DNA from: Ensifer adhaerens
GTDB taxonomy: Bacteria; Pseudomonadota; Alphaproteobacteria; Rhizobiales; Rhizobiaceae
Assembly (NCBI RefSeq): GCF_002007205.1
Contig: NZ_LAZS01000006.1
Span: 434,001-498,000 of the forward strand
Direction of reading: 5' to 3'
Length of the DNA: 64,000 nt
Position numbers and translations under genes: made by a program. The notes beneath the pieces were generated by a model, which saw only the letters and a list, made by a program, of their open reading frames with translations, was not told the DNA's origin and did not search any database. Below are positions 16,021 through 60,416 of the stretch, piece after piece (the stretch's first letter is position 1; each line of letters begins with the position of its first letter).

Positions 16021-16995
16021 TTACTGCTGGAACAGGCGCAGGATGTTTTCGGAATTGGTGTTGGCGATCGAAAGCGCCTGGATGCCCAGTTGCTGCTGCG
16101 TCTGCAGCGCCTTCAGTCGCGTCGATTCCTCGTTCATGTCGGCATCGACGAGACGGCCGACACCCTTGTCGATCGTATCCATCAGGTTGGCGATGAAGCC
16201 CTCCTGCAGCTCGATGCGCTTGGTGATGGCGCCGAGCGTGGAGCCGGCATCCGTCAGCTGGTTGAGGATGCGCTCGACGACGCTGATCATGTCGGCCATT
16301 TCGGCAGGCGTGGTCGATGCGGTCAGCTTGACTTCCGCCGTCGTGCCGATCGGCGTCGTCGCCGGGGCGCCGATCAGGTGGTACAAGCGCGCGCCAGCTG
16401 TGCCGGGCGGAGAGGTGAGCTGGGAGGCGTCGTAGTTCCTGGTCAGGATGCCTCGGCTCGCATTCTGCTTGTCGATCAGCATGGACTGCGAGGTGTCGAA
16501 GTCGAGCGTGGTGACCGACACATTGCCGTTGGCGTCACGGTTGAACGATGCCACGATGGACTTGGTGCCGACCGGGGCTGCGTTCGCATTGTAGAGCCAG
16601 TTTTCACTGGAGAAGGACGCGGATTGGGCGGCCGAGATCAGCTGGTTCTTGAGCTCGGTGATTTCCTTGTCGATCTTCAACTTGTCGACGCCCGGCTCGC
16701 TCGCTGCGACCAGTTTGCGCTTGATCTCACTGACGACCTCGATCGAAGAGTTCATCGCGGCATAGGCCGTGTCGATCTTGGCGGCGCCGAGGCCAAGCGC
16801 GTCCTGAACGGTGGAGAGCGCGGCGTTGTCGGAGCGCATGGTGGTCGCGATCGACCAATAGGCGGCGTTGTCCGCGGCCGTCTGCACACGATAGCCCGAG
16901 GAGATGCGGTCCTGGACTTCCGCCATTTCGGAATTGATCGAACGCAATGTCTGGAGAGCCGCCATGGCGGCGGTGTTGGTCATGATGCTGGTCAT
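16021..16995 (-). CDS. flaC: Flagellin (divergent third copy)
   Basis: A 324 aa flagellin. The conserved N-terminal D0/D1 helices (TNTAAMAALQTLRSINSEMA, residues 6-140) and C-terminal helices (about 240-324, ending ANTNSENILRLFQQ) bracket a short variable region. It diverges from the two flagellins to its right, which are near-identical to each other, across most of its length. It has its own upstream region with a CtrA-like box (17136-17151) and its own hairpin downstream, so it is probably monocistronic. In S. meliloti a principal flagellin (FlaA) combines with secondary ones to make the complex filament; naming here is positional only. Confidence 0.9.
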   Translation of the reverse strand: MTSIMTNTAAMAALQTLRSINSEMAEVQDRISSGYRVQTAADNAAYWSIATTMRSDNAALSTVQDALGLGAAKIDTAYAAMNSSIEVVSEIKRKLVAASEPGVDKLKIDKEITELKNQLISAAQSASFSSENWLYNANAAPVGTKSIVASFNRDANGNVSVTTLDFDTSQSMLIDKQNASRGILTRNYDASQLTSPPGTAGARLYHLIGAPATTPIGTTAEVKLTASTTPAEMADMISVVERILNQLTDAGSTLGAITKRIELQEGFIANLMDTIDKGVGRLVDADMNEESTRLKALQTQQQLGIQALSIANTNSENILRLFQQ

Positions 16996-17363: not shown

Positions 17364-18134
17364 TTAACGGAAGAGCGACAGGATGTTCTGCGAGTTCGAG
17401 TTGGCGATCGTAAGCGCCTGGATCCCGAGCTGCTGCTGCGTCTGTAGAGCCTTCAGGCGGGTCGATTCCTCGTTCATGTCGGCGTCGACGAGACGGCCAA
17501 CGCCCTTCTCGATCGAGTCCGAGAGGTTGTCGACGAAGCCCTTCTGCAGGTCGATACGGCTGTTGAGTGCACCGAGGTCGGCCGCAGCGTCGGTCATCTG
17601 GGTCAGGACGGAGTCGACACCAGACAGAGCCTGCGACAGAGCGCCGGTCGTCATGCTGGTGATGTCGAGCGCGTCGCGGTTGAACGAACCAACAACCGAC
17701 TTCGTGCCGGCAGCGTTGTTCGGGTCGGTGTAAACCCAGTTTTCGCCGGAGAACGAGGCCGACTTGGCAATGCTCAGAAGCTGGTTCTGCAGCTCCTTGA
17801 TTTCCTTCTGGATCTTGCTCTTGTCAACGCCCGGCTCGCTGGCGGTTACCAGCTTCTTCTTGATTTCGTCGACGACGTCCTTGGAGTTTTCCATGGCCGA
17901 AGAAGCAACGTCGGTCTTGGCGGCGCCGAGGCCGAGGGCGTCCTGAACGGCCGAGAGGGCCTTGTTGTCCGAACGCATGGTGGTCGCGATCGACCAGTAA
18001 GCAGCGTTGTCAGCCGCGGTGGCAACGCGCAGACCCGAGGAGATGCGCTCCTGGGTGGTTTCCATCGAGGAGTTGATCGAACGCAGGGTGGCGAGTGCGC
18101 CCATGGCAGAAGAGTTGGTCAGAATGCTCGTCAT
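17364..18134 (-). CDS. flaB: Flagellin, short paralogue lacking central domain segment
   Basis: A 256 aa flagellin that is nearly identical to the 313 aa flagellin at 18423-19364 except that 57 consecutive residues are absent after VVGSFNRDA (about residue 150), in the exposed central region. N- and C-terminal polymerisation helices are intact, so it should still assemble. At nucleotide level the difference is an exact in-frame gap of 171 bases at 17669-17673. The ATG at 18134 matches the start of both neighbours; an in-frame ATG at 18179 would add 15 residues that no paralogue has. A strong terminator follows the stop. Naming is positional. Confidence 0.92.
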   Translation of the reverse strand: MTSILTNSSAMGALATLRSINSSMETTQERISSGLRVATAADNAAYWSIATTMRSDNKALSAVQDALGLGAAKTDVASSAMENSKDVVDEIKKKLVTASEPGVDKSKIQKEIKELQNQLLSIAKSASFSGENWVYTDPNNAAGTKSVVGSFNRDALDITSMTTGALSQALSGVDSVLTQMTDAAADLGALNSRIDLQKGFVDNLSDSIEKGVGRLVDADMNEESTRLKALQTQQQLGIQALTIANSNSQNILSLFR

Positions 18135-18344
18135 TGGCTGAGTGCCCCTTGTTGGCAAAGATGGAATGAAAAGGGACATTCCGGGATTACCGGGAAACGA
18201 CGGTCAGCCTCATGCCTGCTGACGCTTTAATCTGTTCGGGTCAACCCGTCGTTTCGATGGTTACAACAAACACCATCGTGGTTAACGAACCCTAAAACCC
18301 GGAGAAACTTTTCGAAGTTTTATCAGTGCATTGGCGACAAATAA

Positions 18345-18422: not shown

Positions 18423-19364
18423 TTAACGGAAGAGCGACAGGATGTTCTGCGAGTTCGAGTTGGCGATCGACAGTGCCTGGATGCCGAGCTGCTGCTGCGT
18501 CTGCAGAGCCTTCAGGCGGGTCGATTCCTCGTTCATGTCGGCGTCGACGAGACGGCCAACGCCCTTCTCGATCGAGTCCGAGAGGTTTTCGACGAAGCCC
18601 TTCTGCAGATCGATACGGCTGTTGAGCGCACCGAGGTCGGCGGCAGCGTCGGTCATCTGGGTCAGGACCGAGTCAACACCCGACAGAGCCTGCGACAGAG
18701 CGCCGTTCGTCATGCTGGTGATGTCGAGCGACAGAACGCTGAAGGTCAGCGATACGGTCGCGCCGGTCGTGTCGGTGTAGGAGATGTTGCTGGAGAGCAG
18801 GCCCGTGCCGTTGGTGACGTTGGCACCGGAAGCGTTCACTTCGATCAGCGAGCTCTTGTTGGTGTCGTACTGCAGCGTCGTCAGGCTGACATTGCCCTTG
18901 GCGTCGCGGTTGAACGAACCAACGACCGACTTCGTGCCGGCAGCGTTGTTCGGGTCGGTGTAAACCCAGTTTTCGCCGGAGAACGAGGCCGACTTGGCAA
19001 TGCTCACGAGCTGGTTCTGCAGCTCCTTGATTTCCTTCTGGATCTTGCTCTTGTCAACGCCCGGCTCGCTGGCGGTTACCAGCTTCTTCTTGATTTCGTC
19101 GACGACGTCCTTGGAGTTTTCCATGGCCGAAGAAGCAACGTCGGTCTTGGCAGCGCCGAGGCCGAGGGCGTCCTGAACGGCCGAGAGGGCCTTGTTGTCC
19201 GAACGCATGGTGGTCGCGATCGACCAGTAAGCAGCGTTGTCAGCTGCGGTGCCGACGCGCAGACCCGACGAAATACGCTCCTGGGTGGTTTCCATCGAGG
19301 AGTTGATCGAACGCAGGGTGGCGAGTGCGCCCATGGCGGAAGAATTGGTGATGATGCTCGTCAT
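18423..19364 (-). CDS. flaA: Flagellin (probable major subunit)
   Basis: A 313 aa flagellin with conserved N-terminal helices (TNSSAMGALATLRSINSSME, residues 6-140), a central variable region (about 150-215) and conserved C-terminal helices ending ANSNSQNILSLFR. It is exported through the hollow flagellum and polymerises into the filament. It lies first in the flagellin cluster next to fliP, the position of flaA in S. meliloti. It has its own promoter region with a TTAA-N7-TTAA box and its own terminator. The TNSS- and NTT-rich middle offers many Ser/Thr side chains that could be glycosylated by the adjacent enzyme. Confidence 0.93.
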   Translation of the reverse strand: MTSIITNSSAMGALATLRSINSSMETTQERISSGLRVGTAADNAAYWSIATTMRSDNKALSAVQDALGLGAAKTDVASSAMENSKDVVDEIKKKLVTASEPGVDKSKIQKEIKELQNQLVSIAKSASFSGENWVYTDPNNAAGTKSVVGSFNRDAKGNVSLTTLQYDTNKSSLIEVNASGANVTNGTGLLSSNISYTDTTGATVSLTFSVLSLDITSMTNGALSQALSGVDSVLTQMTDAAADLGALNSRIDLQKGFVENLSDSIEKGVGRLVDADMNEESTRLKALQTQQQLGIQALSIANSNSQNILSLFR

Positions 19365-19733
19365 TAGAGTGTCCCTTGATTACTTTAGACGATTTAGGGG
19401 ACATACCGGACTTCCCGGTGATGGCGGATCGGCTTCATGCCACTCGGTTCCAACTATCTCGGAAGAAACCAAACCCGTCATGTGAAAGGGACTATCGCGT
19501 GCAAAGCTTGCGAATTGATTAAATGCCCAAGGCAGCTTGGGCCGAGATAACTTATACTTAACAAGACTTTAATGGCGCCACGAATGCAGAGATCACGGCC
19601 CCGCTGCCGCCAGCATAGATGTGTCGGACGGTGGTTCGCTCCTGCCTGAGGCAAGCTCCCCCGGGTAAACTCGGCTTCGAACAAGGACTAGCAAGCCGGC
19701 GCCGGTCGCCGCGCCTCTTCGACGGAGCTCTTA
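19365..19733. other. Divergent promoter region between flagellin and glycosyltransferase
   Basis: About 370 bases between two divergently read genes. It contains the CtrA-like box at 19558-19572 and AT-rich stretches suitable for promoters in both directions. No ORF with a ribosome-binding site was seen. Confidence 0.65.
19558..19572. promoter_or_regulatory. CtrA-like box between flagellin and glycosyltransferase genes
   Basis: TTAA-N7-TTAA exactly, about 190 bases upstream of the major flagellin start and 160 bases upstream of the glycosyltransferase start. One box could serve both divergent promoters. Inferred from motif match only. Confidence 0.55.
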
Positions 19734-21647
19734 GTGAACGCCCAAGCCATCTTTTCGACCGCCTCCCGGCAATACCAGAAGGGGCAGTACACGGACGCGC
19801 TCAACCAGCTGAATGTGCTGATGGAGATCAACCGCGACACCAAGACCTATGTGCTTCTGGCGAAGGTCCTCGTGAAACTCGGTTTCAAGGCCGAGGCGGC
19901 CCGTGCCTACCAGCTCGCCGGTGAAGCCGGCGGCTCGCGGGCGGAAGATTACCTCACCGACGCCATGAAGCTCTACTTCGCGAACGGGCAGGAGGACGAG
20001 GCGCTGAGCATCGGACTGCCGCTTCTGGAGAAGGCCAAGACAGACGCCGAGATCGCCTTCATCATCGCCTCGATCTTCCTCAAGCGCGGCGAAAAGGAGA
20101 TCCTGGGGCTTTTCAAGGCGCCGCTGACCCTGAGCACCAACCGTCTGCACAATGCGCTTGCCTTCAAGCTGTTGACCGCCGAGATCAACGACCTGCAAGA
20201 TCGTGACGCGCTCGCCAATCTCTTCCGCAACAACCCGAAGAACACCACGCTGCGGTCGGCCCATCTCGTCTATGCGCGTGAGGCCAACGACTATGCCGAG
20301 GTCGAGAAGCACGAACGCGACATCCAGCGGGCACTGAAAGCCGGGCAGACCGAAATTCTTGCAGCTGAAGCGCCCTACTATCACGCGACCTGGTGTGGCG
20401 ACGAAAGCTTCAACCGGGTCGCCGGCGCACAGCTCAACCCGTTCCCGAGCAGCCTGACGGAAGTACGCCGCGCCGCGCCGCACCGCTGGGGCGAGCGCAT
20501 CCGCATCGGTTATGTTTCCGCCGACTTCTGGGACGACCATGCGACGATGAAGCTGCTGAAGGCGGTGTTGATGGCGCACGACAAGACGCGCTTCGACGTC
20601 ACCCTCTTCTGCCATACCAAGAGCGCACTTGCGGCGCGCGACCAGGACATACGGGCAAGATGGGGCAGGATCGTCGAGATCGGCGACCTCACCGACGACG
20701 AGGCTGCGCATGTCATTCGCCAGGAAAACATCGACATTCTCGTCGACCTGAAGGGGCATACGCTCGAAAGCCGGGTCTCCATCTTCAACCGGGCCGCAGC
20801 TCCCGTGCAGGTGGGCTGGCTGGGCTTCCCCGGGACCACCGTCAACGTCGATCTCGACTACATCATCGGCGACCCTTGCGTGCTTCCGGACAGCAGCAAG
20901 GCGCATTACTACGAAAAATACTGCCGCCTGCCGGAGACCTACCAGCCCAACGATCCCTACGAGCGCGCCCGGCCCCGGGCGATTTCGCGCAAGGATGTCG
21001 GCCTTCCCCAGGATGCATTCGTGTTTGCCTCATTCAACGCAAACCGCAAGATTTCGCTTCAGACGGTCAACCTCTGGATCGACATCCTTCACCAGACCCC
21101 CGGAAGCCTGCTGTGGGTGCTGTGCGACAGGGCGGATGCACGCACAAATCTGCTGGCCAAGTTCAAAGGCGCCGGCATCGATACCAAGCGCATCGTCATC
21201 TGCGGCAAGTTCGCCTACCAGAACCACGTCGACCGCGTTCCGCTCGCCGATCTCGGCCTCGACACCTATCCCTATAACGGCCACACGACCACATCCGAAC
21301 AGCTCTGGGCAGGCCTGCCAGTGCTCTCCTTCAAGGGCACCAACTTCGCTTCGCGCGTCAGCGAAAGTCTGTTGAACGCCATCGGCCTGCCGGAACTCGT
21401 GGCTGAGGGACCGGAAGACTACGTCAAGGAAGCTGTCGCGCTCTACAACAACCGTGACAAGATCGCCGATTATCGAAAGAGGCTGGACGAGAACCGGTTC
21501 CGGATGCCGCTATTCGATGCGGAGCGTTTCTGCCAGCACCTGGAAACGGGCTACGAAATGATGGCCGACCGCGCCAAGCGCGGACTGGCCCCCGATCATA
21601 TCGACGTTCCGGCGTTGCCGGCGCGCACCGGGTCGTTCGAGCGCTGA
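19734..21647 (+). CDS. TPR/GT41 glycosyltransferase, FlmG-like; probable flagellin O-glycosyltransferase
   Basis: A 637 aa cytosolic protein. Residues 1-200 are helical TPR-like repeats (YTDALNQLNVLMEINRDTKT, then LLAKVLVKLGFKAEAARAYQ). Residues 245-620 form an OGT/SPINDLY (GT41) catalytic region: RIRIGYVSADFWDDH, VQVGWLGFPGTT, then YIIGDPCVLPD, and the nucleotide-sugar motif YNGHTTTSEQLWAGLPVL with RVSESLLNAIGLPEL. Caulobacter FlmG has the same TPR-GT layout and O-glycosylates flagellin. This gene sits beside three flagellin genes on the opposite strand and ends in its own terminator. It starts with GTG after a GGAG site. The donor sugar cannot be read from sequence; no nonulosonic-acid genes lie in the window. 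Confidence 0.85.
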   Translation: MNAQAIFSTASRQYQKGQYTDALNQLNVLMEINRDTKTYVLLAKVLVKLGFKAEAARAYQLAGEAGGSRAEDYLTDAMKLYFANGQEDEALSIGLPLLEKAKTDAEIAFIIASIFLKRGEKEILGLFKAPLTLSTNRLHNALAFKLLTAEINDLQDRDALANLFRNNPKNTTLRSAHLVYAREANDYAEVEKHERDIQRALKAGQTEILAAEAPYYHATWCGDESFNRVAGAQLNPFPSSLTEVRRAAPHRWGERIRIGYVSADFWDDHATMKLLKAVLMAHDKTRFDVTLFCHTKSALAARDQDIRARWGRIVEIGDLTDDEAAHVIRQENIDILVDLKGHTLESRVSIFNRAAAPVQVGWLGFPGTTVNVDLDYIIGDPCVLPDSSKAHYYEKYCRLPETYQPNDPYERARPRAISRKDVGLPQDAFVFASFNANRKISLQTVNLWIDILHQTPGSLLWVLCDRADARTNLLAKFKGAGIDTKRIVICGKFAYQNHVDRVPLADLGLDTYPYNGHTTTSEQLWAGLPVLSFKGTNFASRVSESLLNAIGLPELVAEGPEDYVKEAVALYNNRDKIADYRKRLDENRFRMPLFDAERFCQHLETGYEMMADRAKRGLAPDHIDVPALPARTGSFER

Positions 21648-21670
21648 ACGGCGATCATCCCTGAAAGACA

Positions 21671-21699
21671 AAAGGCAGCGCCGCGGCGCTGCCTTTTTT
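21671..21699 (+). terminator. Rho-independent terminator of the glycosyltransferase gene
   Basis: A 12-base stem (AAAGGCAGCGCC / GGCGCTGCCTTT) with a tiny GC loop, followed by TTT. It lies 23 bases past the stop codon. This is the clearest plus-strand terminator in the window. Confidence 0.9.
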
Positions 21700-21818: not shown

Positions 21819-22556
21819 CTAGCTGAAGGAGCGCACCAGACTGCCGACAAGCAGATTCCAGCCGTCGATCAACACGAAGAAGAGAATTTTGAACGGCAGC
21901 GAGATCGCCGTCGGCGGCAGCATCATCATACCCATGGCCATGGTGATGGTGGCGACGATCAGGTCGATCACCAGAAAAGGCAGCATGATCAAGAAGCCGA
22001 TTTCAAAGCCGCGGCGAATTTCCGAGATCATGAAGGCCGGCACGAGCGCGCGCAGGTCGACCTTGTCGTCGACGACCACCGTCTGGCCCTTTTCCTTGGC
22101 GAGATCTATGAAGAGCTGCAGATCCTTGTCGCGGGTGTTGGCGAGCATGAAGTCGCGGAAGGGCTCGGTGATCCGCGGGATCGCCTCCGTCTCGGTGATC
22201 TGATTCTTCATCAGCGGGTCGATGCCATCGCGCCACGCGCGATCGAAAGTCGGCCCCATGACGTAGAAGGTCATGAACAGCGCCAGCGAAACCATGATCA
22301 TGTTGGACGGCGTGGTCGCCAGGCCCATGCCGGTGCGCAGGATGGCAAAGGCGATCACGAAGCGCGGAAAGCTGGTGACCATGATCAGGATGCCGGGGGC
22401 CACCGACAGGACGGTCAGAAGACCGAAGGTGCGGATGATCCACGAGGCGGCAGAGCCGTCGATAGGCGTATTCAGGATATCAGAGGGAAAGCTCTGGGCG
22501 CCGGCAATACCGGACATCGCCATCATAGCAATTATAAAGGCGACTAGCCGGACCAT
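21819..22556 (-). CDS. fliP: Flagellar export gate protein FliP
   Basis: FliP (245 aa) is a core subunit of the export pore. It has a cleavable signal-like N-terminus (residues 1-20), then membrane segments at about 45-75, 85-105, 180-205 and 208-235. Family motifs are MVTSFPRFVIAFAILRTGMG and the C-terminal MMLPPTAISLPFKILFFVLI. It is the last gene of the basal-body operon and lies 8 bases after fliL. Confidence 0.96.
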   Translation of the reverse strand: MVRLVAFIIAMMAMSGIAGAQSFPSDILNTPIDGSAASWIIRTFGLLTVLSVAPGILIMVTSFPRFVIAFAILRTGMGLATTPSNMIMVSLALFMTFYVMGPTFDRAWRDGIDPLMKNQITETEAIPRITEPFRDFMLANTRDKDLQLFIDLAKEKGQTVVVDDKVDLRALVPAFMISEIRRGFEIGFLIMLPFLVIDLIVATITMAMGMMMLPPTAISLPFKILFFVLIDGWNLLVGSLVRSFS

Positions 22557-48359: not shown

Positions 48360-49973
48360 TCAGCGCTGCCAGCCGGCGAGCCGGCGCTGCAGCCCATCGT
48401 CAAACAGCGGCGGTACCGGCTCGTCGGCAACGGCCGACGCCTGACGGAAGGGCTCGCTGCCGGCGCGTGTCGGCGAAACCGGACGACGGCGCTCCAGGCG
48501 GAACTGGCGGATCGTCTCGCCGAGCTCGACGATGACCGTATGAAGATCGTCGGTCGAGCGGACCGTCTCGCCGGCAAGGGCGGCACTTGCCTCGACACCC
48601 CGGGAAATCGTGCCGATCTCGGTCGCAACGCCCCTGAGGTCGCCGACCTGCTGCTCCGCCTCGCGGGCGATGCCGGAAACGGCGGAATTGATCGACGTGA
48701 CCTGCTCGACGATGCTGCTGATCGCATCCTGGGTGCGGCCGACGATCTCGACGCCGGTCTCGACCTGCGCCTTCGTGCCGGAAACAAGCTGCTTGATTTC
48801 GCGCGCCGCTTCTCCGGAACGCTGCGCCAGCGCGCGCACTTCCTGGGCGACGACGGCAAAACCGCGACCGCTGTCGCCGGCGCGTGCCGCTTCGATGCCG
48901 GCATTGAGCGCCAGCAGATTGGTCTGGAAGGCGATCTCGTCGATGACACCGATGATCTGGCCGATCTTTTCGGCCGATGCTTCGATGTCGGCCATGGCGG
49001 AAATCGCCTGGCCGGCGATCTCGCCGCTGCGTTCGACGGCGATGCGTGTCTCGTTGGTCTTCGTTTCCGTGGCGCTGATCCGTCCCGAGCCGGTCGCCAT
49101 GCGTCCGGCCATGTCGGCGAGCGCTGCAAGCTGCCCGGAAAGCGCTTCGGCTTCGGCGCTTGCCTTGTCGGAGAACGATGCTGCGCCGCCGCGCATGCGG
49201 TCGACCAGCGTTTCGGCAGCACGGCTGCGCTGATCCGATGTCTGGAGGCTTTGCTGGATCTGCTCGAGCGCTGCGTTCAGGCTCGCGACGATCGGCTGAT
49301 AGGCTTCAACCGCCGTTTCCGGCAGCCGAGCGCCGAGATCGCCCTGGCTCACGCCTTCGGCAAAGTCGCCGAAGAGCGCCTTGACCTCCAGTTCGTCGGC
49401 GCTGCGCTGTTCGGCGAGTTGCCGCTGATGCTGCTGTCGAAGCGCATTGAAACGGAGCGAAACGCCGATCTCGGTATCGACAAAAGTGGTGCGCACCAGC
49501 GCGGCAACCAGCTCGCAGAGTTCGCGGCGGCGCGCCTTGCCCATCGGCAGGAAGGACTTTGGCCAGGCATCCTCGATCAGTCCGACGATCAGATGTTCTA
49601 GCACGACGGCGTGGCTTGCCATCTGCCAGCGCGGGTCGAGGCCCATGCGGCTTGCGGTGTCTGCGAGCACCTTGATGCGCTCGGCATAGAGCCCGTCGAA
49701 GCGCGCGTCGGTCAACACGCTCCAGTGCGACGACTGAAGGTCCTGAAGGCGATCGATCTGGCGGTCGCTGTCGAAATGGCGCGCGGCGTCGGGATAGGTC
49801 TGGAGGCGCTGGAAAAGATCGCGAAGCGCCTGATCAATGCGGGGAGAAAGCTTCTGTCGGTTATCCCGGACGCGGTTGCAGGTCTCGTCGTCGAGCCCGG
49901 CAAAACGCAGGCGCTCCAGCAGGCTGCCTGCCTGGCCCTTTTTTGCCTGTTCTGACGATGATTCCTGCCTCAA
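48360..49973 (-). CDS. icpA: Soluble globin-like chemoreceptor IcpA/McpE
   Basis: A 537 aa methyl-accepting chemotaxis protein without membrane helices. Residues 20-170 form a globin-sensor (HemAT-like) domain ([20 protein letters not shown], then [11 protein letters not shown]); about 210-500 is the signalling coiled coil with the conserved tip [20 protein letters not shown]. The expected proximal heme His, five residues before the L of the IGL/MGL motif, is Ala107, so heme binding is doubtful. No C-terminal CheR/CheB tether peptide is visible. It heads the che operon. The start is TTG at 49973 (GGGGA six bases before); no ATG exists before residue 110. In S. meliloti the first che-operon gene is named icpA, earlier mcpE. 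Confidence 0.88.
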
Positions 49974-50662: not shown

Positions 50663-52051
50663 CTACGGCTGCTTTTCTTTGTCCGCGTGGTCCCGCGTCG
50701 CTTTCTGCCATGCCTGTGCATAGGCGACGAGGTTTTCCGTCGCCTCCCCCGAAAGCCGCTCTACGCCGGTCCGGACCCTGGAGCCCTTAACCAGGCATGC
50801 GGCTCCGAGGCTCGTACCCGTGATATTGTGGGGATCGGCAAAGACCGGCCGGCCGGTCGCGGCCGCGAGCATGCGCAGGTAGGTGCCGTTGGCGGCAAAG
50901 GGCCCTTCGACGACGATGTCTCCCCGCGCTCCGATCAGATCGAGGCAGGTCGCCGTCATCAGCGCCAGATAGAACGAGACGACCACGAAACGCTCATCGG
51001 GCTTAAGCATCCGTTGCTGCGTCGTCCACGTCGCCTTCAGGCCCGGAAAGGGCCCTGACCCCTCGGGGATCGACGGCAGCAGCATGTGCCGAGCCGAGGC
51101 AACGGCCTCCTCCGTCTCAGGCGGCACGGGGATCGCCCCCTCCCCGAACAAGAGCTGGAAGGCACGGCCGCCCATGAAGCGGGCCGAGGGCACGGGGTCG
51201 CCTGATGCGTTGACGTTGACAAGCGTATCGCGACGTTCGTCGAGCGGCCTCGGCTCCGCGCCCACCGCCAGCATGACGACCCAGGTGCCGGTGGAAACCA
51301 CCGAGAAGGGCGATGCCCGCGTCAGCAGATGCGGCAGCAGCGACGCGTTGGAATCGTGAATGCCACAATAGACGGGCGTGCCTTCGGCAAGGCCGGTTGC
51401 GGCGCAGAGTTCCGGCAGCAAGGCACCGGCGATATCACTCGCCTTCAGCACCGGCGCAAAGAGCGGACGCCAGCCCTGACGTTCAACCAGGGACGAGTAG
51501 GTAGCGGCTCTCGGGTTCCAGAGATCCGTGTGGCAGCCGAGCGAGGTCAGCTCGTTTGAGAGCGTGCCAGTCAGCCGGTAGGTCCAGTACTGCGCATAGG
51601 TGAGGATCGAGGCGACCCTGGCAAAATCGTCCGGAAAGGTCTTCTGCTGCCAATAGAGCTGCGCACCAACATTGAGGCCCATCGGCAGGCGCGCCGAACC
51701 GGTTTCGGCAAAGGGCGGCCTTATGTCATCATATTCCGCAGCCAGGCTGTCCGGACCCGAATGTTCATAGTCGAGGACCGGAAGCGCCAGATTGCCTGAT
51801 GCATCGAGCACGACCGCCGTCGCACCATGGGTGGTGATCGAGATTGCCTCGAAGGCGTGTTCGGCGTTCAGCGCCGCGAGGCTTTCCAACACGAATGTCC
51901 AGAGACGCTCGATATCGAAATGAGGATAAAGACCGTCGGTCAGCACCGCGTTCGCCGTCTTGCGGACGGCGATCTCCTCGAAACGATCGAGATCAACGGC
52001 CGCGACCTTGGCATTCGTCTTGCCGATATCAATGACACCAACGACCCGCAT
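50663..52051 (-). CDS. rhaK: L-rhamnulose kinase-type FGGY kinase RhaK
   Basis: RhaK (462 aa) is an FGGY-family sugar kinase. The phosphate-1 motif is at the N-terminus (GVIDIGKTNAKVAAVDL) and the FGGY C-terminal region includes GARGDIVVEGPFAANGTYLR. It phosphorylates rhamnulose (or rhamnose; in R. leguminosarum RhaK is also required for transport activity of the ABC importer). It is the last gene of the rhaRSTPQUK operon, 4 bases after the mutarotase gene. The ATG at 52051 is chosen because it starts at the kinase motif; a longer frame to 52111 overlaps the upstream gene. Confidence 0.9.
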   Translation of the reverse strand: MRVVGVIDIGKTNAKVAAVDLDRFEEIAVRKTANAVLTDGLYPHFDIERLWTFVLESLAALNAEHAFEAISITTHGATAVVLDASGNLALPVLDYEHSGPDSLAAEYDDIRPPFAETGSARLPMGLNVGAQLYWQQKTFPDDFARVASILTYAQYWTYRLTGTLSNELTSLGCHTDLWNPRAATYSSLVERQGWRPLFAPVLKASDIAGALLPELCAATGLAEGTPVYCGIHDSNASLLPHLLTRASPFSVVSTGTWVVMLAVGAEPRPLDERRDTLVNVNASGDPVPSARFMGGRAFQLLFGEGAIPVPPETEEAVASARHMLLPSIPEGSGPFPGLKATWTTQQRMLKPDERFVVVSFYLALMTATCLDLIGARGDIVVEGPFAANGTYLRMLAAATGRPVFADPHNITGTSLGAACLVKGSRVRTGVERLSGEATENLVAYAQAWQKATRDHADKEKQP

Positions 52052-52055
52052 CAGA

Positions 52056-52370
52056 TCAGTCCATATGAAAGACGGTCGTGAGCGGCACAGCCACCGGCTC
52101 GTTGTCGCCATGGGTTTCCATGATGTCGGCCATATAGGCCCACCATTTCCGCATGATCGGATGGGACGGCAGGTCGGCCATATGGTGGTCGTCGGTGCGC
52201 CAGAGCACGCCGAACAGCAGATTGGTTTCCTCGTCCAGATGGATGGAGTAGTCGGAGACGCCGGCTTCCTTCAGAAGTGCTGCCAGTTCCGGCCAGATCG
52301 CATCATGGCGGGCCTTGTATTCGGCGGCCATGCCCGGGTTCAAACGCATGCGGAACGCATATTTTTCCAT
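52056..52370 (-). CDS. rhaM: L-rhamnose mutarotase RhaM (RhaU)
   Basis: A 104 aa enzyme that interconverts the alpha and beta anomers of L-rhamnose, called RhaM in enterics and RhaU in Rhizobium. The family start [20 protein letters not shown] is clear, His22 ([10 protein letters not shown]) is the likely catalytic residue, and the WW-containing end [15 protein letters not shown] is present. It starts 7 bases after rhaQ. Confidence 0.94.
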
Positions 52371-52377
52371 CAGACCC

Positions 52378-53382
52378 TCAATGCGCCAGACGACGGCGGG
52401 CGCGCCGCCAGAGGATGGGGAGCGCGATCACCGAGATCAGCAGCAGCCCGATGAAGATCGACATGACGATGCCGGGCACGTTGAGCAGACCGAAGCCGAA
52501 GGTCACCATGCCCATGATCAGCGCGGCGAGCACGACGCCGGGGATGGTGCCGGAGCCGCCGAGAATGTTGACGCCGCCGAGCACCACCATCGTCACCACC
52601 TCAAGCTCCCAGCCGAGCGCGATCGACGGGCGTGTCGAACCGAGCCGCGAGGTCAGGCAGATCGAGGCGAGCCCCGCCATCAGGCCGGTCAGGAGAAACA
52701 GGATGAACTTCACGCGCGCGACACGGATGCCGGAAAATAGCGCCGCCGTCTGGTTGTTGCCGATGGCATAGACGGCGCGGCCGAAATTGGTCTTGTGCAG
52801 GACGACGCCGTAGACGATCGCAAGCACGACGAAGAGCGTGAACTCGAAGGAAAATACCCACCAGACATAACCCTGGCCGAACCAGGCAAAGCTGTCGGGA
52901 TAGCTGGTAAAGGCCTGGTCGCCGAGGACAATGAAGGAGAGCCCGCGGAAAAGGCTCATGGTGCCGATCGTCACCACGATCGAGGGCAGCCCGAGGCCAG
53001 TGATCAGAAGGCCGTTGATCGCGCCACAGGCAAGCCCGACCGCAAGGCCGATCACCACCAGCGCCGGCGTGTCGAAGCCGAGCTGGACGGCATAACCCAT
53101 GGCGGTCGACGCGAGCGCGATAATCGAGGCAACTGAAAGGTCGATCTCGCCGGAGATGATCACCAGCGCCATGGCAAAGGCGATGATCGCCTTTTCGGTA
53201 AAGTTGAAGGTGGCGTCCGAGAGGTTCCATGGATCAAGGAAATAGGGCGACGCCAGCGAGTTGCCGAGGAAGATGAGGCAGGCGACGACCAGCAGCAGGC
53301 TCTCCCAGCTCTTCAAAAGCCGAGCGCCGCGTCCTTCCAGCCGGTCGGGAATGTTACGCGGGGTCAGGTGGGTTTCCGCCAT
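52378..53382 (-). CDS. rhaQ: Rhamnose ABC transporter permease RhaQ
   Basis: RhaQ (334 aa) is a sugar-type ABC permease of the RbsC class with about nine or ten hydrophobic segments between residues 25 and 320. The conserved permease loop near residue 245 onward ([20 protein letters not shown]) and [20 protein letters not shown] mark the class. It shares one base with rhaP, so the two permeases are translated together. Confidence 0.92.
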
Positions 53383-54358
53383 CAGACAGCCTCCGCTTTT
53401 CTCAAGATGACACGTCCCTTGCGCCGCTCGGCGCGGGCGTTGACGGCAACGGCAATGATGATGACCATGCCCGAAATCGCCATCTGCGCGAAAGGCGAGA
53501 TGTTGATGACCGGCAGCGCGTTCTTGATGACGCCGAGAAACAGCGCGCCGAGCACGGCGCCGGCCACGGTACCGATACCGCCGGCGATCGAGATGCCGCC
53601 GATGACGCAGGCGGCGATGATGTCGAGTTCGAAACCAAGCGCGATGTCGACATAGGCGACGGCATAGCGCGACACCCAGAGATAGCCGGACAGCCCGGCA
53701 AGCGCGCCCGAAAGACAATAGGCGAAGAAGCGAGTACGGCCGACATCGATGCCGGTATAGACGGCCGCATGCGGATTGCCGCCGACCGCATAGAAGGCGC
53801 GCCCGAGTGCCGTGCGGCTCATCACCAGGAAGACGAGCCCGATCATGACAAGCGACAGCCAGGAGAGGACCGGGAATCCGGCGAGTTCATCGCGCGGCAA
53901 TGCCTTGAACGCATCGCTCATCTGATGGGCGTTGATCCACTTGCCGTCGCTCAAGAGAAAGATCAGGCCACGATAGATGGTGAGCGTGCCGAGCGTGACG
54001 ACGATCGGCGGGATATCGAGCTTCCAGACAAGCGCGCCGTTGATCATGCCGAGCAAAGTACCGAGCATGACGGCAGCAAGAATGATCAGCGGGATCGGCA
54101 AGCCGGGATAGGCGGCGTTCAGCATCGCCGCCATCATGCCGGACAGCGCCAGGTTGGCGGCCATCGAGAGGTCGATGCAGCGCGTCAGGATCACCGCCAT
54201 CTGGCCAAGCGCCAGGATGATCAGGATCGAGGTGTCATTGTAGACGCGCGCGAGGTTCGAAGGCGCGACAAAAGCCGGAAAACGCCAGGTGATGAGCACA
54301 AGCAACACGGCGATCGCGGCGACGAGCAACAGTTCGCGGTTCTTGAGGATGTTTGCCA

Positions 54359-54359
<1 letters not shown>
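53382..54359 (-). CDS. rhaP: Rhamnose ABC transporter permease RhaP
   Basis: RhaP (325 aa) is the second RbsC-type permease. Membrane segments fill residues 10-315, and the class motif GFELDIIAACVIGGISIAGG is near residue 245. It overlaps rhaT and rhaQ by single bases (TGATG junctions). Two different permeases with one ATPase imply a heterodimeric channel. Confidence 0.92.
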
Positions 54360-55855
<1,496 letters not shown>

Positions 55856-55977
55856 CCGCGATGTGAGCGTATCCTGCAGCAAGAGACAGTCCACCTATTC
55901 AGTCGTTTCGATAACGTCTTGCAAGCGCGTCGGTCGCGCAGTTCGGATAGTCCCCACTGCCTTGGCAGTTCGGGGTT

Positions 55978-56127
55978 GCCCCTCACCCTAACCCTCTCCC
56001 CGCACGCGGGGAGAGGGAACGAGGATGCCGCGCTCGTCCCGCCTCGTCGAGAAGATGGGCAAACCGTTGCCGCAGGTTCCCTTCTCCCCGCAAGCGGGGA
56101 GAAGGTGCCGGCAGGCGGATGAGGGGC
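55978..56127. repeat. RIME-like intergenic repeat with two palindromes
   Basis: A 150-base element bounded by inverted GCCCCTCA / TGAGGGGC. It holds two strong hairpins: CCCTCTCCCCGC / GCGGGGAGAGGG (55992-56017) and CCTTCTCCCCGC / GCGGGGAGAAGG (56080-56105), each 12 base pairs with a two-base loop. This layout fits the Rhizobium-specific intergenic mosaic elements. It lies between rhaS and rhaT, so the hairpins would be in the mRNA. Confidence 0.75.
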
Positions 56128-56177
56128 GCTCCCCTCACCGCGCGGATGAGGGCAATGCCGGTCCGGAGTTCGCAAGA

Positions 56178-57173
56178 TCAGAAGATCTTGGCGAATTCCT
56201 CGACGTTCTTGGCGTCGTAGACGAACGGGTCGGCCATCGCGCCTTCGTTGTTGTCGTCGAGCTTGACAGCACCCATACGGCCCATCTTCAGTTCAGCGCC
56301 CGGCTTGGCTTCGGCACCACCGATCAGGTCATAAGCGATCATCGTTGCGGAATAGCCGAGGTCGATCGGGTTCCAGATCGCGAAGGACTTGGAAGCGCCC
56401 GACTTCACGTGGCCGGCCATTTCCGAGGGGAGGCCGAGGCCGGTGACATTGATCTGCCCGATCTTGCCGGCGTCGGTGACGGCCTGGGCGGCCGCGACGA
56501 TGCCGACCGAGGTGGGCGCGATGATCGCCTTCAGGTTCGGATGGGACTGAATGAGGCCTTGCGTTTCGCGATAGGATTTGTCGGCAAGGTCGTCGCCATA
56601 GACGGTCGCAACGACATTGATGCCCTTGTAGTTGCCCTGAACCTTCTTCATCTCGGCGATCCAGGTGTTCTGGTTGGTCGCGGTCGCGGACGCCGAAAGC
56701 ACGGCGACGTCGCCGCCCTCAGGCAGGTTGTCGGCGGCAAGCTTGATGATCATGTTACCGATCAAGGGGTTCGACGACGGATTGAGGTGCATCATCCGGC
56801 CGTCCTTGGCGACGCCCGAGTCCCAGGAGATGACCTTGATACCACGGTCCATCGCCTTCTTCAGCGCCGGAACGAGGGCGTCGGTGTCATTGGCCGAAAC
56901 GGCGATCGCATCGACCTTCTGGGCGATCAGCGAATTGATCACCTCGATCTGGCCTTCGGCCGTCGTCGAGGTCGGGCCGGTATAGATCACCTCGACGTCA
57001 CCCAGTTCCTTGGCGGCTTCCTGGGCGCCCTTGTTGGCGGCCTCGAAGAAGCCGATGCCGAGCGCCTTGACGACGAGCGCGATCTTCTTGTTTTCCGCAT
57101 GCGCGGCATTGGCCATCAGCGCCAGCGAAACGGCGGCCGTGACCATCAGTGATTTCAGGATCTTCATGCTCAT
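56178..57173 (-). CDS. rhaS: Rhamnose ABC transporter substrate-binding protein RhaS
   Basis: RhaS (331 aa) is the periplasmic sugar-binding protein. The signal peptide covers residues 1-26 (SLMVTAAVSLALMANAAHAE). The mature protein is a ribose-binding-type fold with IDAIAVSANDTDALVPALKK and VISWDSGVAKDGRMMHLNPS. It heads the transporter genes, 114 bases after rhaR. In this organisation it is made in excess of the other subunits, and the downstream RIME-like hairpins could help by protecting its mRNA. Confidence 0.94.
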   Translation of the reverse strand: MSMKILKSLMVTAAVSLALMANAAHAENKKIALVVKALGIGFFEAANKGAQEAAKELGDVEVIYTGPTSTTAEGQIEVINSLIAQKVDAIAVSANDTDALVPALKKAMDRGIKVISWDSGVAKDGRMMHLNPSSNPLIGNMIIKLAADNLPEGGDVAVLSASATATNQNTWIAEMKKVQGNYKGINVVATVYGDDLADKSYRETQGLIQSHPNLKAIIAPTSVGIVAAAQAVTDAGKIGQINVTGLGLPSEMAGHVKSGASKSFAIWNPIDLGYSATMIAYDLIGGAEAKPGAELKMGRMGAVKLDDNNEGAMADPFVYDAKNVEEFAKIF

Positions 57174-57287
57174 TTCCTCCCAATGACCGGCGCGCGACAG
57201 GCGTCGCCGGCGCGGCTTCCTCCGTTCGGCAACGAACCGGCCCCTTTTTTGGCCGTGAGCGTCACCTTCCCCTCTCCTCGCCCTCCC

Positions 57288-58100
57288 TCAGGCGGACGAG
57301 GACATGTTCTCCGCATCTGCGCCGGCCCTGCTGCTGGCAACGACCAGCCTCACGCCGGCGTTTTCAAGCATCGCGGCATGCCTGTCCTCGATGCCCGAAT
57401 CCGTAATCACCGTGGCGATCCGCTTCAGCCCGCACAGGATGAGGCTCGAGCGCTTGTGAAATTTCGACGAGTCGACCAGCACGACCAACTCGTCCGCCTG
57501 GTCGATGAGTTTCTGCTCGGCCTGGATCAGAAGCGGATCCGCCTCCATCAGGCCGAGCGGGCCCAGCCCCTGCGCGCCCATGAACATGCGGCGCGCATAG
57601 AAATTGCGCGTCACGTCGTTGTCGAAGGGGCTCAGGATGATGTTCTGCTCGCGGTAGATCGTGCCGCCCGACAGCATCACCGTGTTCTTGGAGTGCTTCA
57701 AAAGGTGCTCGGCGATCGGGAAGGAGTTGGTGAAAACCTGCATCCGGCGATTGCTTAAGAAATGCACCATCTGGAAAGTGGTGGTTCCGCCGTTGATGAT
57801 GATCGGCTCGCCATCCTCGCAGAGCGCCACCGCCTCCTTGGCGATCGCCTGCTTCTCGCGGGCATGCAGCCCCTCGTTGACCTTGAACGGCCGGCCGGCA
57901 AGCCCGACGAATTGCGGCGGGTTGATCGCCTCGGCACCGCCGCGCACGCGGCGCAGCTTCTTCTGCACATGGAGAGCCGCAATATCGCGCCGGATCGTCG
58001 CCTCGGAACTGTCGGTCAGATCGACCAGTTCCTGGACGGTGACGACGGGTTTTTCCTGAACCGCCGACTGAATGATCCGGTGTCTTTCTTTCTCGTGCAT
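57288..58100 (-). CDS. rhaR: DeoR-family rhamnose repressor RhaR
   Basis: RhaR (270 aa) is a DeoR-type regulator. The N-terminal helix-turn-helix is at residues 1-58 (VTVQELVDLTDSSEATIRRD) and the DeoR C-terminal sugar-phosphate-binding domain follows (IINGGTTTFQMVHFLSNRRM). In R. leguminosarum RhaR represses the rhamnose operon. It is the first gene of the leftward rha operon and diverges from rhaD; the 202-base gap contains a paired inverted repeat that is the likely operator. Confidence 0.94.
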   Translation of the reverse strand: MHEKERHRIIQSAVQEKPVVTVQELVDLTDSSEATIRRDIAALHVQKKLRRVRGGAEAINPPQFVGLAGRPFKVNEGLHAREKQAIAKEAVALCEDGEPIIINGGTTTFQMVHFLSNRRMQVFTNSFPIAEHLLKHSKNTVMLSGGTIYREQNIILSPFDNDVTRNFYARRMFMGAQGLGPLGLMEADPLLIQAEQKLIDQADELVVLVDSSKFHKRSSLILCGLKRIATVITDSGIEDRHAAMLENAGVRLVVASSRAGADAENMSSSA

Positions 58101-58145
58101 CCGCTCCTCCGATGACGTTCATGCTTCCATCACGATCGACCATTG

Positions 58146-58214
58146 TCAATCACAAACAATCATATTTTTTCATTGTGCAGCGCAGTATGCGCGAACTTGA
58201 TCGTTTTTGATTGA
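58146..58214. promoter_or_regulatory. Candidate RhaR operator (paired inverted repeat)
   Basis: Two 17-base arms face each other at 58146-58162 and 58198-58214. Read on opposite strands they agree at 15 of 17 positions (TCAATCAcAAACaATCA and TCAATCAaAAACgATCA). They lie in the rhaR-rhaD gap, where one repressor could bridge both promoters. DeoR-family sites usually come in such multiples. Confidence 0.72.
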
Positions 58215-58302
58215 CTTTAACGCTCAAGTCCTGTGATCTGATGCCAACCATATCTTTGCGCGGCCGCCAAGCCGCGCGGCATCAGACCGGGAGGAATTCG
58301 AG

Positions 58303-60402
58303 ATGCTCGACAAGCAGCAGGGCGCGCGACTTGCAAACCTTTGGGACGAGGCAAAGGCTGCCGGCATGAGCGAATCCGAGCGCCTGCTCTATCGCTCGAA
58401 CCTGCTCGGCTCCGACAAGCGCATCACCAATTACGGCGGCGGCAACACCTCGGCCAAGGTGATGGAGAAGGACCCGCTTGGCGGCGGCACGGTCGAGGTT
58501 CTCTGGGTCAAGGGGTCCGGCGGCGACGTCGGCACGATCAAGCTCGACGGCTTCGCCACCCTCTATATGGACAAGCTCAACGCGCTGAAGTCGATCTATC
58601 GCGGCGTCGCGTTCGAAGACGAGATGGTCGGCTACCTGCCGCATTGCACCTTCAACCTCAACCCGCGTGCAGCCTCGATCGACACGCCGCTGCATGCCTA
58701 TGTGCCGAAGAAGCATGTCGACCACATGCACCCCGACGCGATCATCGCGATTGCCGCGGCCAAGAACAGCCGCGAGCTGACGGCGAAGATCTTCGGCGAC
58801 GATATCGGCTGGCTGCCGTGGAAGCGCCCGGGCTACGAACTCGGGCTGTGGCTCGAAAAATTCTGCCTAGAAAACCCTGATGCCCGAGGCGTCGTGCTCG
58901 AAAGCCACGGTCTCTTCACCTGGGGCGACACGGCGAAAGTGGCTTACGAGACGACCGTCGAGATCATCAACAAGGCCATCGCCTGGTTCGAGGCCGAGAA
59001 CACCAAACCCGCCTTCGGCGGCGCGGTGAAGCCGACGCTCGACGCTGCCGCCCGCGCCGACGTCGCTCGCAAGCTGATGCCGGTCATCCGCGGTCTGATC
59101 AGCGCTGACGAGAAGAAGGTCGGGCATTTCGACGACAGCCAGGCGGTGCTCGATTTTGTCACATCGCGTGACCTTAAGCCGCTCGCAGCCCTTGGGACGA
59201 GCTGCCCCGACCACTTTCTGCGCACCAAGATTCGGCCTCTGGTGATCGATTTCGACCCGGCCAATCCCGATGTCGACAGGACGCTCGCTGCCCTTCCCGA
59301 AGCAATCGCCGCCTATCGTGCCGACTACGCGGCCTATTACGAGCGCTGCAAGCACGCCGACAGCCCTGCCATGCGCGACCCGAACGCGGTCGTCTATCTG
59401 GTGCCCGGCGTCGGTATGATCACCTTTGCCAAGGACAAGGCGACCGCCCGCATCTCCGGCGAGTTCTATGTCAACGCCATCAACGTCATGCGTGGCGCCT
59501 CGGGCGTGTCGACCTATGTCGGGCTGCCGGAACAGGAAGCCTTCGACATCGAATACTGGCTGCTTGAGGAAGCAAAGCTGCAGCGCATGCCGAAACCGAA
59601 GAGCCTGGCCGGCCGCATCGCGCTCGTCACCGGCGGCGCCGGCGGTATCGGCAAGGCGACGGCCAACCGGTTGATGCAGGAAGGTGCCTGCGTGGTGCTT
59701 GCCGATATCGACGAGACCGCGCTTGCGGCTGCCGAAGCTGAACTTTCGGCCCGCTACGGCAAGGACTTCGTGCGCTCGATCAGCATGAACGTCACCAGCG
59801 AAGCAGCGGTCGAAAACGGTTTCGCCGATGCGCTGCTCGCCTTCGGCGGCCTCGACATTCTCGTGTCGAATGCCGGCCTTGCCTCGTCGGCCGCGATCGA
59901 GGACACAACGCTCGCGCTCTGGACCAAGAACATCGACATCCTGACGACCGGCTATTTCCTCGTCTCGCGCGAGGCCTTCCGCATCTTCCGGCAACAGAAG
60001 GCCGGCGGCAACGTCGTCTTCGTCGCCTCCAAGAACGGTCTGGCCGCCTCTCCCGGCGCATCTGCCTATTGCACCGCCAAGGCGGCCGAGATCCACCTCG
60101 CCCGCTGCCTGGCGCTCGAAGGGGCTGGCGCGCAGATCCGCGTCAACGTCGTGAACCCCGACGCGGTGTTGCGCGGCTCGAAGATCTGGACTGGCGAGTG
60201 GAAGGAACAGCGCGCCGCCGCCTACAAGATGGATGTGGACGATCTGGAAGCGCATTATCGCGAGCGTTCGATGCTGAAGCTCAGCGTCTTCCCCGAGGAT
60301 ATCGCCGAGGCGATCTACTTCCTTGCCTCCGACATGTCGGCGAAATCGACCGGCAACATCATCAATGTCGACGCGGGCAACGCCCAGTCCTTCACCCGCT
60401 GA
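58303..60402 (+). CDS. rhaD: Fused rhamnulose-1-phosphate aldolase / lactaldehyde dehydrogenase RhaD
   Basis: RhaD (699 aa) is a two-domain enzyme. Residues 1-430 are a class II aldolase (YGGGNTSAKVMEKDPLGGGT; metal-binding His in HVDHMHPDAIIAIAA) that splits rhamnulose-1-phosphate to DHAP and L-lactaldehyde. Residues 440-699 are a short-chain dehydrogenase with the NAD loop RIALVTGGAGGIGKATANRL and the YxxxK site SAYCTAKAAEIHLARC, which oxidises lactaldehyde. A strong GGGAGGA site precedes the ATG. It is followed by rhaI after 14 bases. Confidence 0.95.
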   Translation: MLDKQQGARLANLWDEAKAAGMSESERLLYRSNLLGSDKRITNYGGGNTSAKVMEKDPLGGGTVEVLWVKGSGGDVGTIKLDGFATLYMDKLNALKSIYRGVAFEDEMVGYLPHCTFNLNPRAASIDTPLHAYVPKKHVDHMHPDAIIAIAAAKNSRELTAKIFGDDIGWLPWKRPGYELGLWLEKFCLENPDARGVVLESHGLFTWGDTAKVAYETTVEIINKAIAWFEAENTKPAFGGAVKPTLDAAARADVARKLMPVIRGLISADEKKVGHFDDSQAVLDFVTSRDLKPLAALGTSCPDHFLRTKIRPLVIDFDPANPDVDRTLAALPEAIAAYRADYAAYYERCKHADSPAMRDPNAVVYLVPGVGMITFAKDKATARISGEFYVNAINVMRGASGVSTYVGLPEQEAFDIEYWLLEEAKLQRMPKPKSLAGRIALVTGGAGGIGKATANRLMQEGACVVLADIDETALAAAEAELSARYGKDFVRSISMNVTSEAAVENGFADALLAFGGLDILVSNAGLASSAAIEDTTLALWTKNIDILTTGYFLVSREAFRIFRQQKAGGNVVFVASKNGLAASPGASAYCTAKAAEIHLARCLALEGAGAQIRVNVVNPDAVLRGSKIWTGEWKEQRAAAYKMDVDDLEAHYRERSMLKLSVFPEDIAEAIYFLASDMSAKSTGNIINVDAGNAQSFTR

Positions 60403-60416
60403 TCGAGGAGATTTTC

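Follow-up and report, generated by a model that had tools for sequence, protein, structure and literature searches.

The GT41 gene located between flaA and fliP in Ensifer adhaerens probably encodes a cytoplasmic, flagellin-dedicated O-glycosyltransferase that would use a UDP-sugar as the donor. The gene lies in a window of 64,000 nucleotides, the whole stretch of DNA analyzed here, to which all coordinates refer (Table 1). From its domain composition, active site residues and genomic context, we infer the activity, acceptor, donor sugar and timing of the proposed enzyme as follows: the TPR-like N-terminus would bind flagellin in its unfolded state (FlaA, FlaB and perhaps also FlaC), and the OGT-type domain would transfer a single sugar from a UDP-sugar onto serine or threonine of the outer flagellin domain before export, with UDP-GlcNAc, which is made anyway for the cell wall, as the donor candidate. 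That no sugar-nucleotide genes adjoin the GT41 gene would be explained if the donor is produced elsewhere for a different purpose. The initial annotation proposed an FlmG-like flagellin glycosyltransferase; of this proposal, a TPR/GT41 protein that is tied to the flagellin locus and probably acts on flagellin is retained, and the identification with FlmG is abandoned. Judging from the comparisons described below, the Ensifer enzyme would resemble FlmG in its working outline yet is not FlmG.

Table 1. Features of the flagellin-GT41-fliP region (window coordinates)
Feature	Coordinates	Strand	Basis and remarks
Third flagellin, FlaC-like	16021..16995	-	Pfam; outside the co-diverging block
Second flagellin	17364..18179	-	256 aa if translated from the MTS start at 18134; 57 outer-domain residues missing
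flaA-like flagellin, presumed acceptor	18423..19364	-	PF00669 and PF00700; back to back with the GT41 gene
Divergent flaA/GT41 intergenic region	19365..19733		15-locus alignment
Putative RBS (GGAG) ahead of the GTG start	19724..19727	+	Sequence; GGAGC kept in 15/15 aligned relatives
GT41 glycosyltransferase gene	19734..21647	+	GTG start, 637 aa; ORF and translation, PF13844
TPR-like helical N-terminal part, residues 1-247	19734..20474	+	Model helices; profile alignment with FlmG and OGT TPRs
GT41 catalytic region, residues 255-624	20496..21605	+	OGT structure match; H269, K439, H498, R501, H517-T519, E522
Terminator-like hairpin separating the GT41 gene from the convergent fliP	21670..21697		12-pair stem, T run
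fliP, other border of the insertion	21819..22556	-	PF00813

As initially annotated, the GT41 gene is a real gene that is divergent from the three flagellin genes. The dN/dS values range from 0.07 to 0.19 in all 15 pairs among six Ensifer copies, so the protein evolves under purifying selection; given these low values and the conserved neighborhood, the open reading frame is not a chance one. It is also the only PF13844 gene found in the 6.87 Mb source genome, where it was matched as two pieces in one frame. In the alignment of the flaA/GT41 intergenic region from 15 Ensifer and Sinorhizobium-type loci, a block in the flaA leader (19397-19483) is conserved nearly base for base, above the rest of the region, and is possibly a regulatory leader; the scan for sigma-70 promoters found none. 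The terminator of its own that had been assigned to the GT41 gene is the hairpin that precedes the convergent fliP. Because the terminator scan yielded 2 sites versus 2.4 expected from shuffled sequences, i.e., no excess, this assignment is based on the stem and on the place of the hairpin between converging genes; given the A run on one side and the T run on the other, the hairpin is probably a two-way terminator.

The catalytic domain was recognized by the Glyco_transf_41 model (PF13844; E = 2.1e-68, 231 bits against a cut-off of 25), and the TPR models matched the single sequence weakly, below their own cut-offs (ANAPC3, 1.2e-4; TPR_19, 0.018). No methyltransferase domain was matched by Pfam in this protein. 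In the AlphaFold2 model, built with 24 sequences (pLDDT 85, pTM 0.80), helices span residues 3-247, and the best matches of the model in the PDB are Drosophila OGT, Xanthomonas XcOGT, human OGT and SPINDLY. The top Foldseek matches (5a01, 2jlb and 8fe6) have E-values of about 1e-29, with TM-scores by query length of only 0.58-0.67, and the structure alignments to the OGTs show about 20-27% identity. According to the model, the protein is an OGT-type GT41 that consists of a TPR superhelix and the two GT-B halves. A relationship to the HMW1C/NGT N-glucosyltransferases was considered and rejected given the score of 28.8 bits with NCBIfam NF049992, the cut-off of which is 1000.

The comparison with FlmG (CCNA_01524) has to be considered separately for the two parts of the protein. 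FlmG consists of 596 residues, with an N-terminal TPR part that binds flagellin and a C-terminal GT-B part, and requires pseudaminic acid; the term GT41 does not occur in the main text of the respective paper (PMC7591256). We located FlmG by synteny in two genomes, G924 and G900, in which the best flagellin shares 88% and 81% identity with FljK, respectively. The former encodes a homologue with a longer start (L147) and the latter a 597-residue FlmG (L149), each near three flagellin genes; the L149 gene is flanked on one side by a GNAT acetyltransferase gene, consistent with flmH, and on the other by flbT, flaF and the flagellins. Neither of these FlmG proteins contains PF13844; the 597-residue FlmG has TPRs and matches no Pfam glycosyltransferase model. 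BLASTP of FlmG against the GT41 protein gave nothing significant (E = 1.1), and profile comparison with hhalign aligned residues 7-190 to the TPRs of FlmG, leaving the catalytic parts entirely unaligned. The search of 16 Ensifer genomes likewise yielded no match to the catalytic half of FlmG: only FlmG residues 80-290 matched weakly, with 30 matches in all. Conversely, no GT41 match was found in four Caulobacteraceae flagellin regions (L147, L149, L151, L152). Thus, the layout that was initially likened to FlmG comprises a TPR-like part and a GT41 domain, as claimed, but does not match FlmG, which lacks PF13844 and has a catalytic part that cannot be aligned.

The donor that FlmG requires was addressed through NeuB (PF03102), the sole enzyme of the nonulosonic acid pathway searched. 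A search for genes of pseudaminic or legionaminic acid synthesis, as initially suggested, was run for this enzyme only and came back empty for the source genome, which therefore lacks the type of sugar that FlmG uses; on the absence of NeuB, a nonulosonic acid donor was rejected for this genome. NeuB is present in two of the 16 Ensifer genomes, in 3 of 15 further Rhizobiaceae that carry a GT41 relative and not in the single such genome from outside the family, i.e., it is missing from 27 of the 32 genomes that carry a GT41 gene of this kind, versus its presence in both Caulobacter-like genomes. All 16 Ensifer genomes retain the GT41 gene, including the 14 without NeuB. Orthology with Caulobacter FlmG, under which the Ensifer protein would put pseudaminic or legionaminic acid on flagellin, is contradicted by the lack of PF13844 in FlmG, the alignment confined to the TPRs and the missing catalytic half in the 16 Ensifer genomes, and we consider it hardly credible when the distribution of NeuB is added. 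In favor of orthology, the order of TPRs and glycosyltransferase, the location beside flagellins and the presumed flagellin acceptor are shared with FlmG, and the TPR parts align by profile; furthermore, the control genome of Caulobacter vibrioides has a PF13844 match, the place of which was not given, and one of the two NeuB-positive Ensifer genomes (G409) has a 99% identical GT41 copy.

The active site was examined in 59 aligned relatives (35 flagellin-linked Rhizobiaceae, 15 unlinked Rhizobiaceae and 9 distant rows), which include close relatives and so do not represent independent events. We take the corresponding OGT residues to be numbered H498, K842, H901, H920-T922 and D925. The catalytic lysine (K842 in OGT, K439 here) is present in all 59 relatives, and the donor pocket residues H498, H517, T518 and T519 are retained in the Ensifer protein. 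Position 501 (OGT R904) is arginine in all 59 rows, and position 463 (OGT L866; leucine here) is Leu, Met, Ile or Phe, with the lysine typical of SPY in none of the 59. Position 514 (OGT C917) varies between Tyr, Cys and Val across the relatives, also within the flagellin-linked clade, and is Tyr in the Ensifer protein. Position 522, which corresponds to OGT D925 and to E752, the ribose contact of SPY, is Glu in each of the 35 rows of flagellin-linked Rhizobiaceae genes; the unlinked ones have Asp in 14 of 15 rows (the exception with Glu is L037), and all 9 distant rows have Asp. Because three of the distant rows (L006, L008 and L070) are flagellin-linked genes from other families, Glu522 is a marker of the Rhizobiaceae clade rather than of flagellin linkage in general. 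In three GT41 genes located beside flagellins in another alphaproteobacterial family (L070, L073 and L080), the histidine of the OGT-type NGHTT motif is replaced by leucine (NALTT), so the donor pocket may differ there.

Donor choice in this family is described as set by three positions, SPY K689/OGT L866, A731/R904 and Y744/C917, with mixed residue patterns reported for an intermediate group (PMC10027727). Given that position 501 is always Arg and position 463 never Lys, the residues speak for uridine, that is, for a UDP-sugar as the donor, and leave the sugar open. The same source states that Tyr in the place of C917 would clash with the N-acetyl group (PMC10027727), and XcOGT, which also has Tyr in this place, is reported to have shown no O-GlcNAc activity (PMC9715652); Tyr514 thus counts against plain GlcNAc as the donor sugar. 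UDP-GlcNAc appears to be the best single guess, with roughly equal chances of being right or wrong. Under a different scenario, the protein would be an O-fucosyltransferase of the SPINDLY type that uses GDP-fucose, given the common GT41 family and the identity of Tyr514 and Glu522 with SPY Y744 and E752, respectively (PMC10027727). However, the base-selecting residues are those of an OGT, with Leu463 and Arg501 in place of the guanosine-reading Lys689 and Ala731 of SPINDLY, and position 514 varies inside the flagellin-linked clade, which makes fucosyl transfer very improbable. The shared features with the OGTs themselves (XcOGT, 2jlb; Drosophila; human) are the succession of TPR and GT41 parts, the fold, the catalytic Lys and the uridine-contacting Arg and His; the Ensifer protein differs from them in the low identity, the replacement of Asp925 by Glu, the variable residue in the place of C917 in its clade and the linkage to flagellin.

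Among 297 Rhizobiaceae genomes, 76 have a GT41 match at an E-value of 1e-10 or better and 221 have none; given that the FliP search matched 237 of the 297, rhizobial flagella do not need the GT41 gene. Among the best 30 of these 237 fliP matches, GT41 is located beside fliP in 8, flaA follows fliP directly without GT41 in 21, and one has neither, so the GT41 gene is a patchy insertion between fliP and flaA. All 16 Ensifer genomes carry a single copy between flaA and fliP (flaA is cut by the end of the contig or locus in L034 and L168); the names Ensifer and Sinorhizobium overlap in the database records. The neighborhoods of 30 fetched full-length Rhizobiaceae loci (L003-L005, L033-L059) were then surveyed: a flaA-like gene adjoins GT41 in 19, invariably in divergent orientation, and 13 of these 19 also have fliP on the opposite side within 1.5 kb, the remaining 11 loci having neither flaA nor fliP. 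A search for named loci with exact short peptides, in which absence means little because of this design, returned 23 loci, with E. adhaerens and E. sesbaniae among the sources; flaA adjoins GT41 in 19 of these, and no flagellin is nearby in 4. The flaA-GT41-fliP arrangement is kept in L105-L121 (17 loci, of which 16 bear the name Ensifer or Sinorhizobium and one is labeled as a Rhizobiales bacterium) and in Rhizobium sp. Root1220 (L123), and the locus from a MAG (L122) keeps flaA only. The four loci without a flagellin (L124-L127; Agrobacterium vitis, Allorhizobium sonneratiae, an uncultured Rhizobium and R. halophytocola) contain none of the twelve tested flagellar genes within the fetched flanks of up to 10 kb per side, and the GT41 genes form tandem pairs in L124 and L125. 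Given the unlinked genes in 11 of 30 and 4 of 23 loci, the family has other jobs too. Three unlinked Rhizobiaceae GT41 genes (L127, L200 and L205) were seen by eye to lie near a similar small gene resembling a zinc uptake regulator. Plasmid-borne GT41 genes were represented by 86 records, in each of which the best place showed less than 60% identity.

In the tree of 121 GT41 domain rows, for which only SH-aLRT support was computed, the flagellin-linked Rhizobiaceae sequences cluster in a single group (51 rows, support 96), which is adjacent to the unlinked GT41s of this family. Forty-nine of these rows were labeled as linked, including L159-L169, which were so labeled in advance and in all 11 of which flaA and fliP were later found on either side, and L190, labeled by fliP alone because the flaA side is outside the fetched piece. 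The remaining two rows are L037, which branches early and has no flagellin neighbors, and L076, a refetch of the linked L004 with less flanking sequence. Flagellin-adjacent GT41s of three other families (L006-L010; L070, L073 and L080; L012) branch elsewhere; the match to the flagellin C-terminal domain in L006-L010 is only weak (E-values of 8e-6 to 4e-4). The linkage label needs five changes on the tree, and the starred branches force at least three. The location of L012 in another part of the tree, despite the same place and orientation with respect to fliP and flaA, suggests a separate arrival.

The divergence of the GT41 gene follows that of flaA and departs from that of the other flagellar genes. 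Three sets of loci were compared, namely Ensifer (the source window, L106 and L108), seven of the Sinorhizobium type (L109-L115) and five of the E. adhaerens type (L116-L118, L120 and L121); the loci cut by contig ends (L105, L107, L119 and L122) were left out of the divergence and tree comparisons. In 11 other flagellar genes, the Ensifer loci are closer to the E. adhaerens type; the bootstrap range is entirely negative for 8 of these genes and reaches zero for FlaC, FlgH and MotE. FlaA and GT41 show the opposite direction in the same grouping, with +9.1 points (5.2 to 12.9) and +11.1 points (8.2 to 14.1), respectively. At the DNA level, L106 was compared with two loci of each type, and the order of the identities is inverted at about 7.5-12 kb, which corresponds to flaB, flaA and GT41, by only one point in places. 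With groups chosen after the tblastn identities were known, the GT41 tree rejects a common group of the Ensifer set and the E. adhaerens type (p-AU 0.024), the FlaA tree lacks the resolution to show an exchange of flaA and GT41, and the trees of the flanking genes favor the other order without proving it (p = 0.129 and 0.125), so that tree topology was dropped as proof of such an exchange. Two scenarios are nevertheless compatible with the divergence pattern: (i) the flagellin-GT41 block was jointly exchanged or jointly underwent fast change, which appears to be the simplest reading of the sequence comparisons, or (ii) physical linkage alone could be the source of the divergence in step. A broader scenario, possible in our judgment and on balance doubtful, is that the flaC-fliP interval in Rhizobiaceae is a small cassette of flagellins and a dedicated GT41 that is exchanged or diversified as a unit, such that filament protein and glycoform would change together; under this scenario, the clade marker Glu522 and the variable residue 514 (Tyr, Cys or Val) would reflect donors tuned away from plain GlcNAc, and such pairings would have arisen several times in Alphaproteobacteria, separately from FlmG.

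The flagellins themselves carry no signal of the acceptor role. The content of Ser and Thr in the outer region is 27% in 52 flagellins from 29 carrier loci versus 26% in 14 flagellins from 19 non-carrier loci (collected with a simple start pattern, near-copies included), which is no difference and argues neither for nor against this role, so Ser/Thr enrichment was discarded as an indicator of the acceptor. The second flagellin lacks its outer-domain residues in frame compared to the full 313-residue copy in the sister genome G409 (L210), and may be a filament subunit without most of the region that is likely to bear the glycan. The lack of an acceptor signal, along with the unlinked Rhizobiaceae relatives that occur singly or in tandem without tested flagellar genes within 10 kb, would fit an active GT41 with another target, such as a regulator, an export component or a surface protein, located beside flaA by chance or owing to co-expression. 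Given the flagellin linkage of the entire clade, the linked GT41s in three other families and the divergence in step with flaA, we consider such a target unlikely. The TPR-like half and the position divergent to flaA can also be viewed as pointing to a protein with two roles, similar to GmaR of Listeria, that would be mainly a TPR chaperone or regulator of flagellin expression, with glycosylation as a secondary function: a bifunctional O-GlcNAc transferase governing motility is on record in Listeria, with GmaR described as a thermosensor that binds MogR. To our knowledge, however, GmaR is not a GT41, and the catalytic residues of the Ensifer protein are retained under purifying selection, which renders a mainly regulatory role decidedly improbable. 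The reading preferred here remains that of a glycosyltransferase that would act on flagellin.

There is a published precedent for such a linkage. GT41 genes at flagellin loci have been described in 14 types of enterobacterial flagellin glycosylation islands from 198 strains and are predicted to glycosylate flagellin by adding GlcNAc derivatives (PMC4875605). As described there, the enterobacterial genes belong to islands with sugar-modifying genes and most have methyltransferase domains (PMC4875605), whereas the Ensifer GT41, compared with them by description only, is a single gene between flaA and fliP, with no methyltransferase match in the protein itself and no sugar-nucleotide genes among the scanned ORFs of the window. 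In rhizobia, the flagellins of R. leguminosarum stain as glycoproteins, with sites not identified (PMC2936354), and those of Agrobacterium sp. H13-3 were called possibly glycosylated on data not shown (PMC8310070); the text excerpts of both reports name no enzyme. In our literature search on rhizobial flagellin glycosylation, O-GlcNAc transferase and GT41, which covered few subscription journals, no title or beginning of an abstract naming this gene was found, and no paper was found under the presumed locus tag SMc03036. A single-gene candidate makes the claim of rhizobial flagellin glycosylation testable, at least in Ensifer, and, if the proposed activity is real, it would represent a second alphaproteobacterial route to flagellin glycosylation, with a catalytic domain unrelated to that of FlmG. 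Maf was considered as an alternative enzyme: PF01973 matched none of the 16 Ensifer genomes, and because it matched only four archaea among 14 control genomes, it is a poor probe for bacterial Maf and an unsuitable model for judging this candidate.

The Pfam scan of 61 of the 63 ORFs of the window identified flagellar and chemotaxis genes, regulators and, at about 50.6-61.7 kb, genes for sugar uptake and catabolism. None of the 61 belongs to a sugar-nucleotide synthesis family, in agreement with the initial remark that no sugar-synthesis genes are linked. The region at 50663-61712, which follows the flagellar and chemotaxis genes, encodes a rhamnose mutarotase, an FGGY kinase, components of a sugar ABC transporter, a DeoR regulator, an aldolase/dehydrogenase fusion and an isomerase-like protein; judging from these predicted families, it is a region of sugar catabolism and not of sugar-nucleotide synthesis. 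A chemoreceptor with a protoglobin sensor domain is encoded at 48360-49973 on the minus strand.
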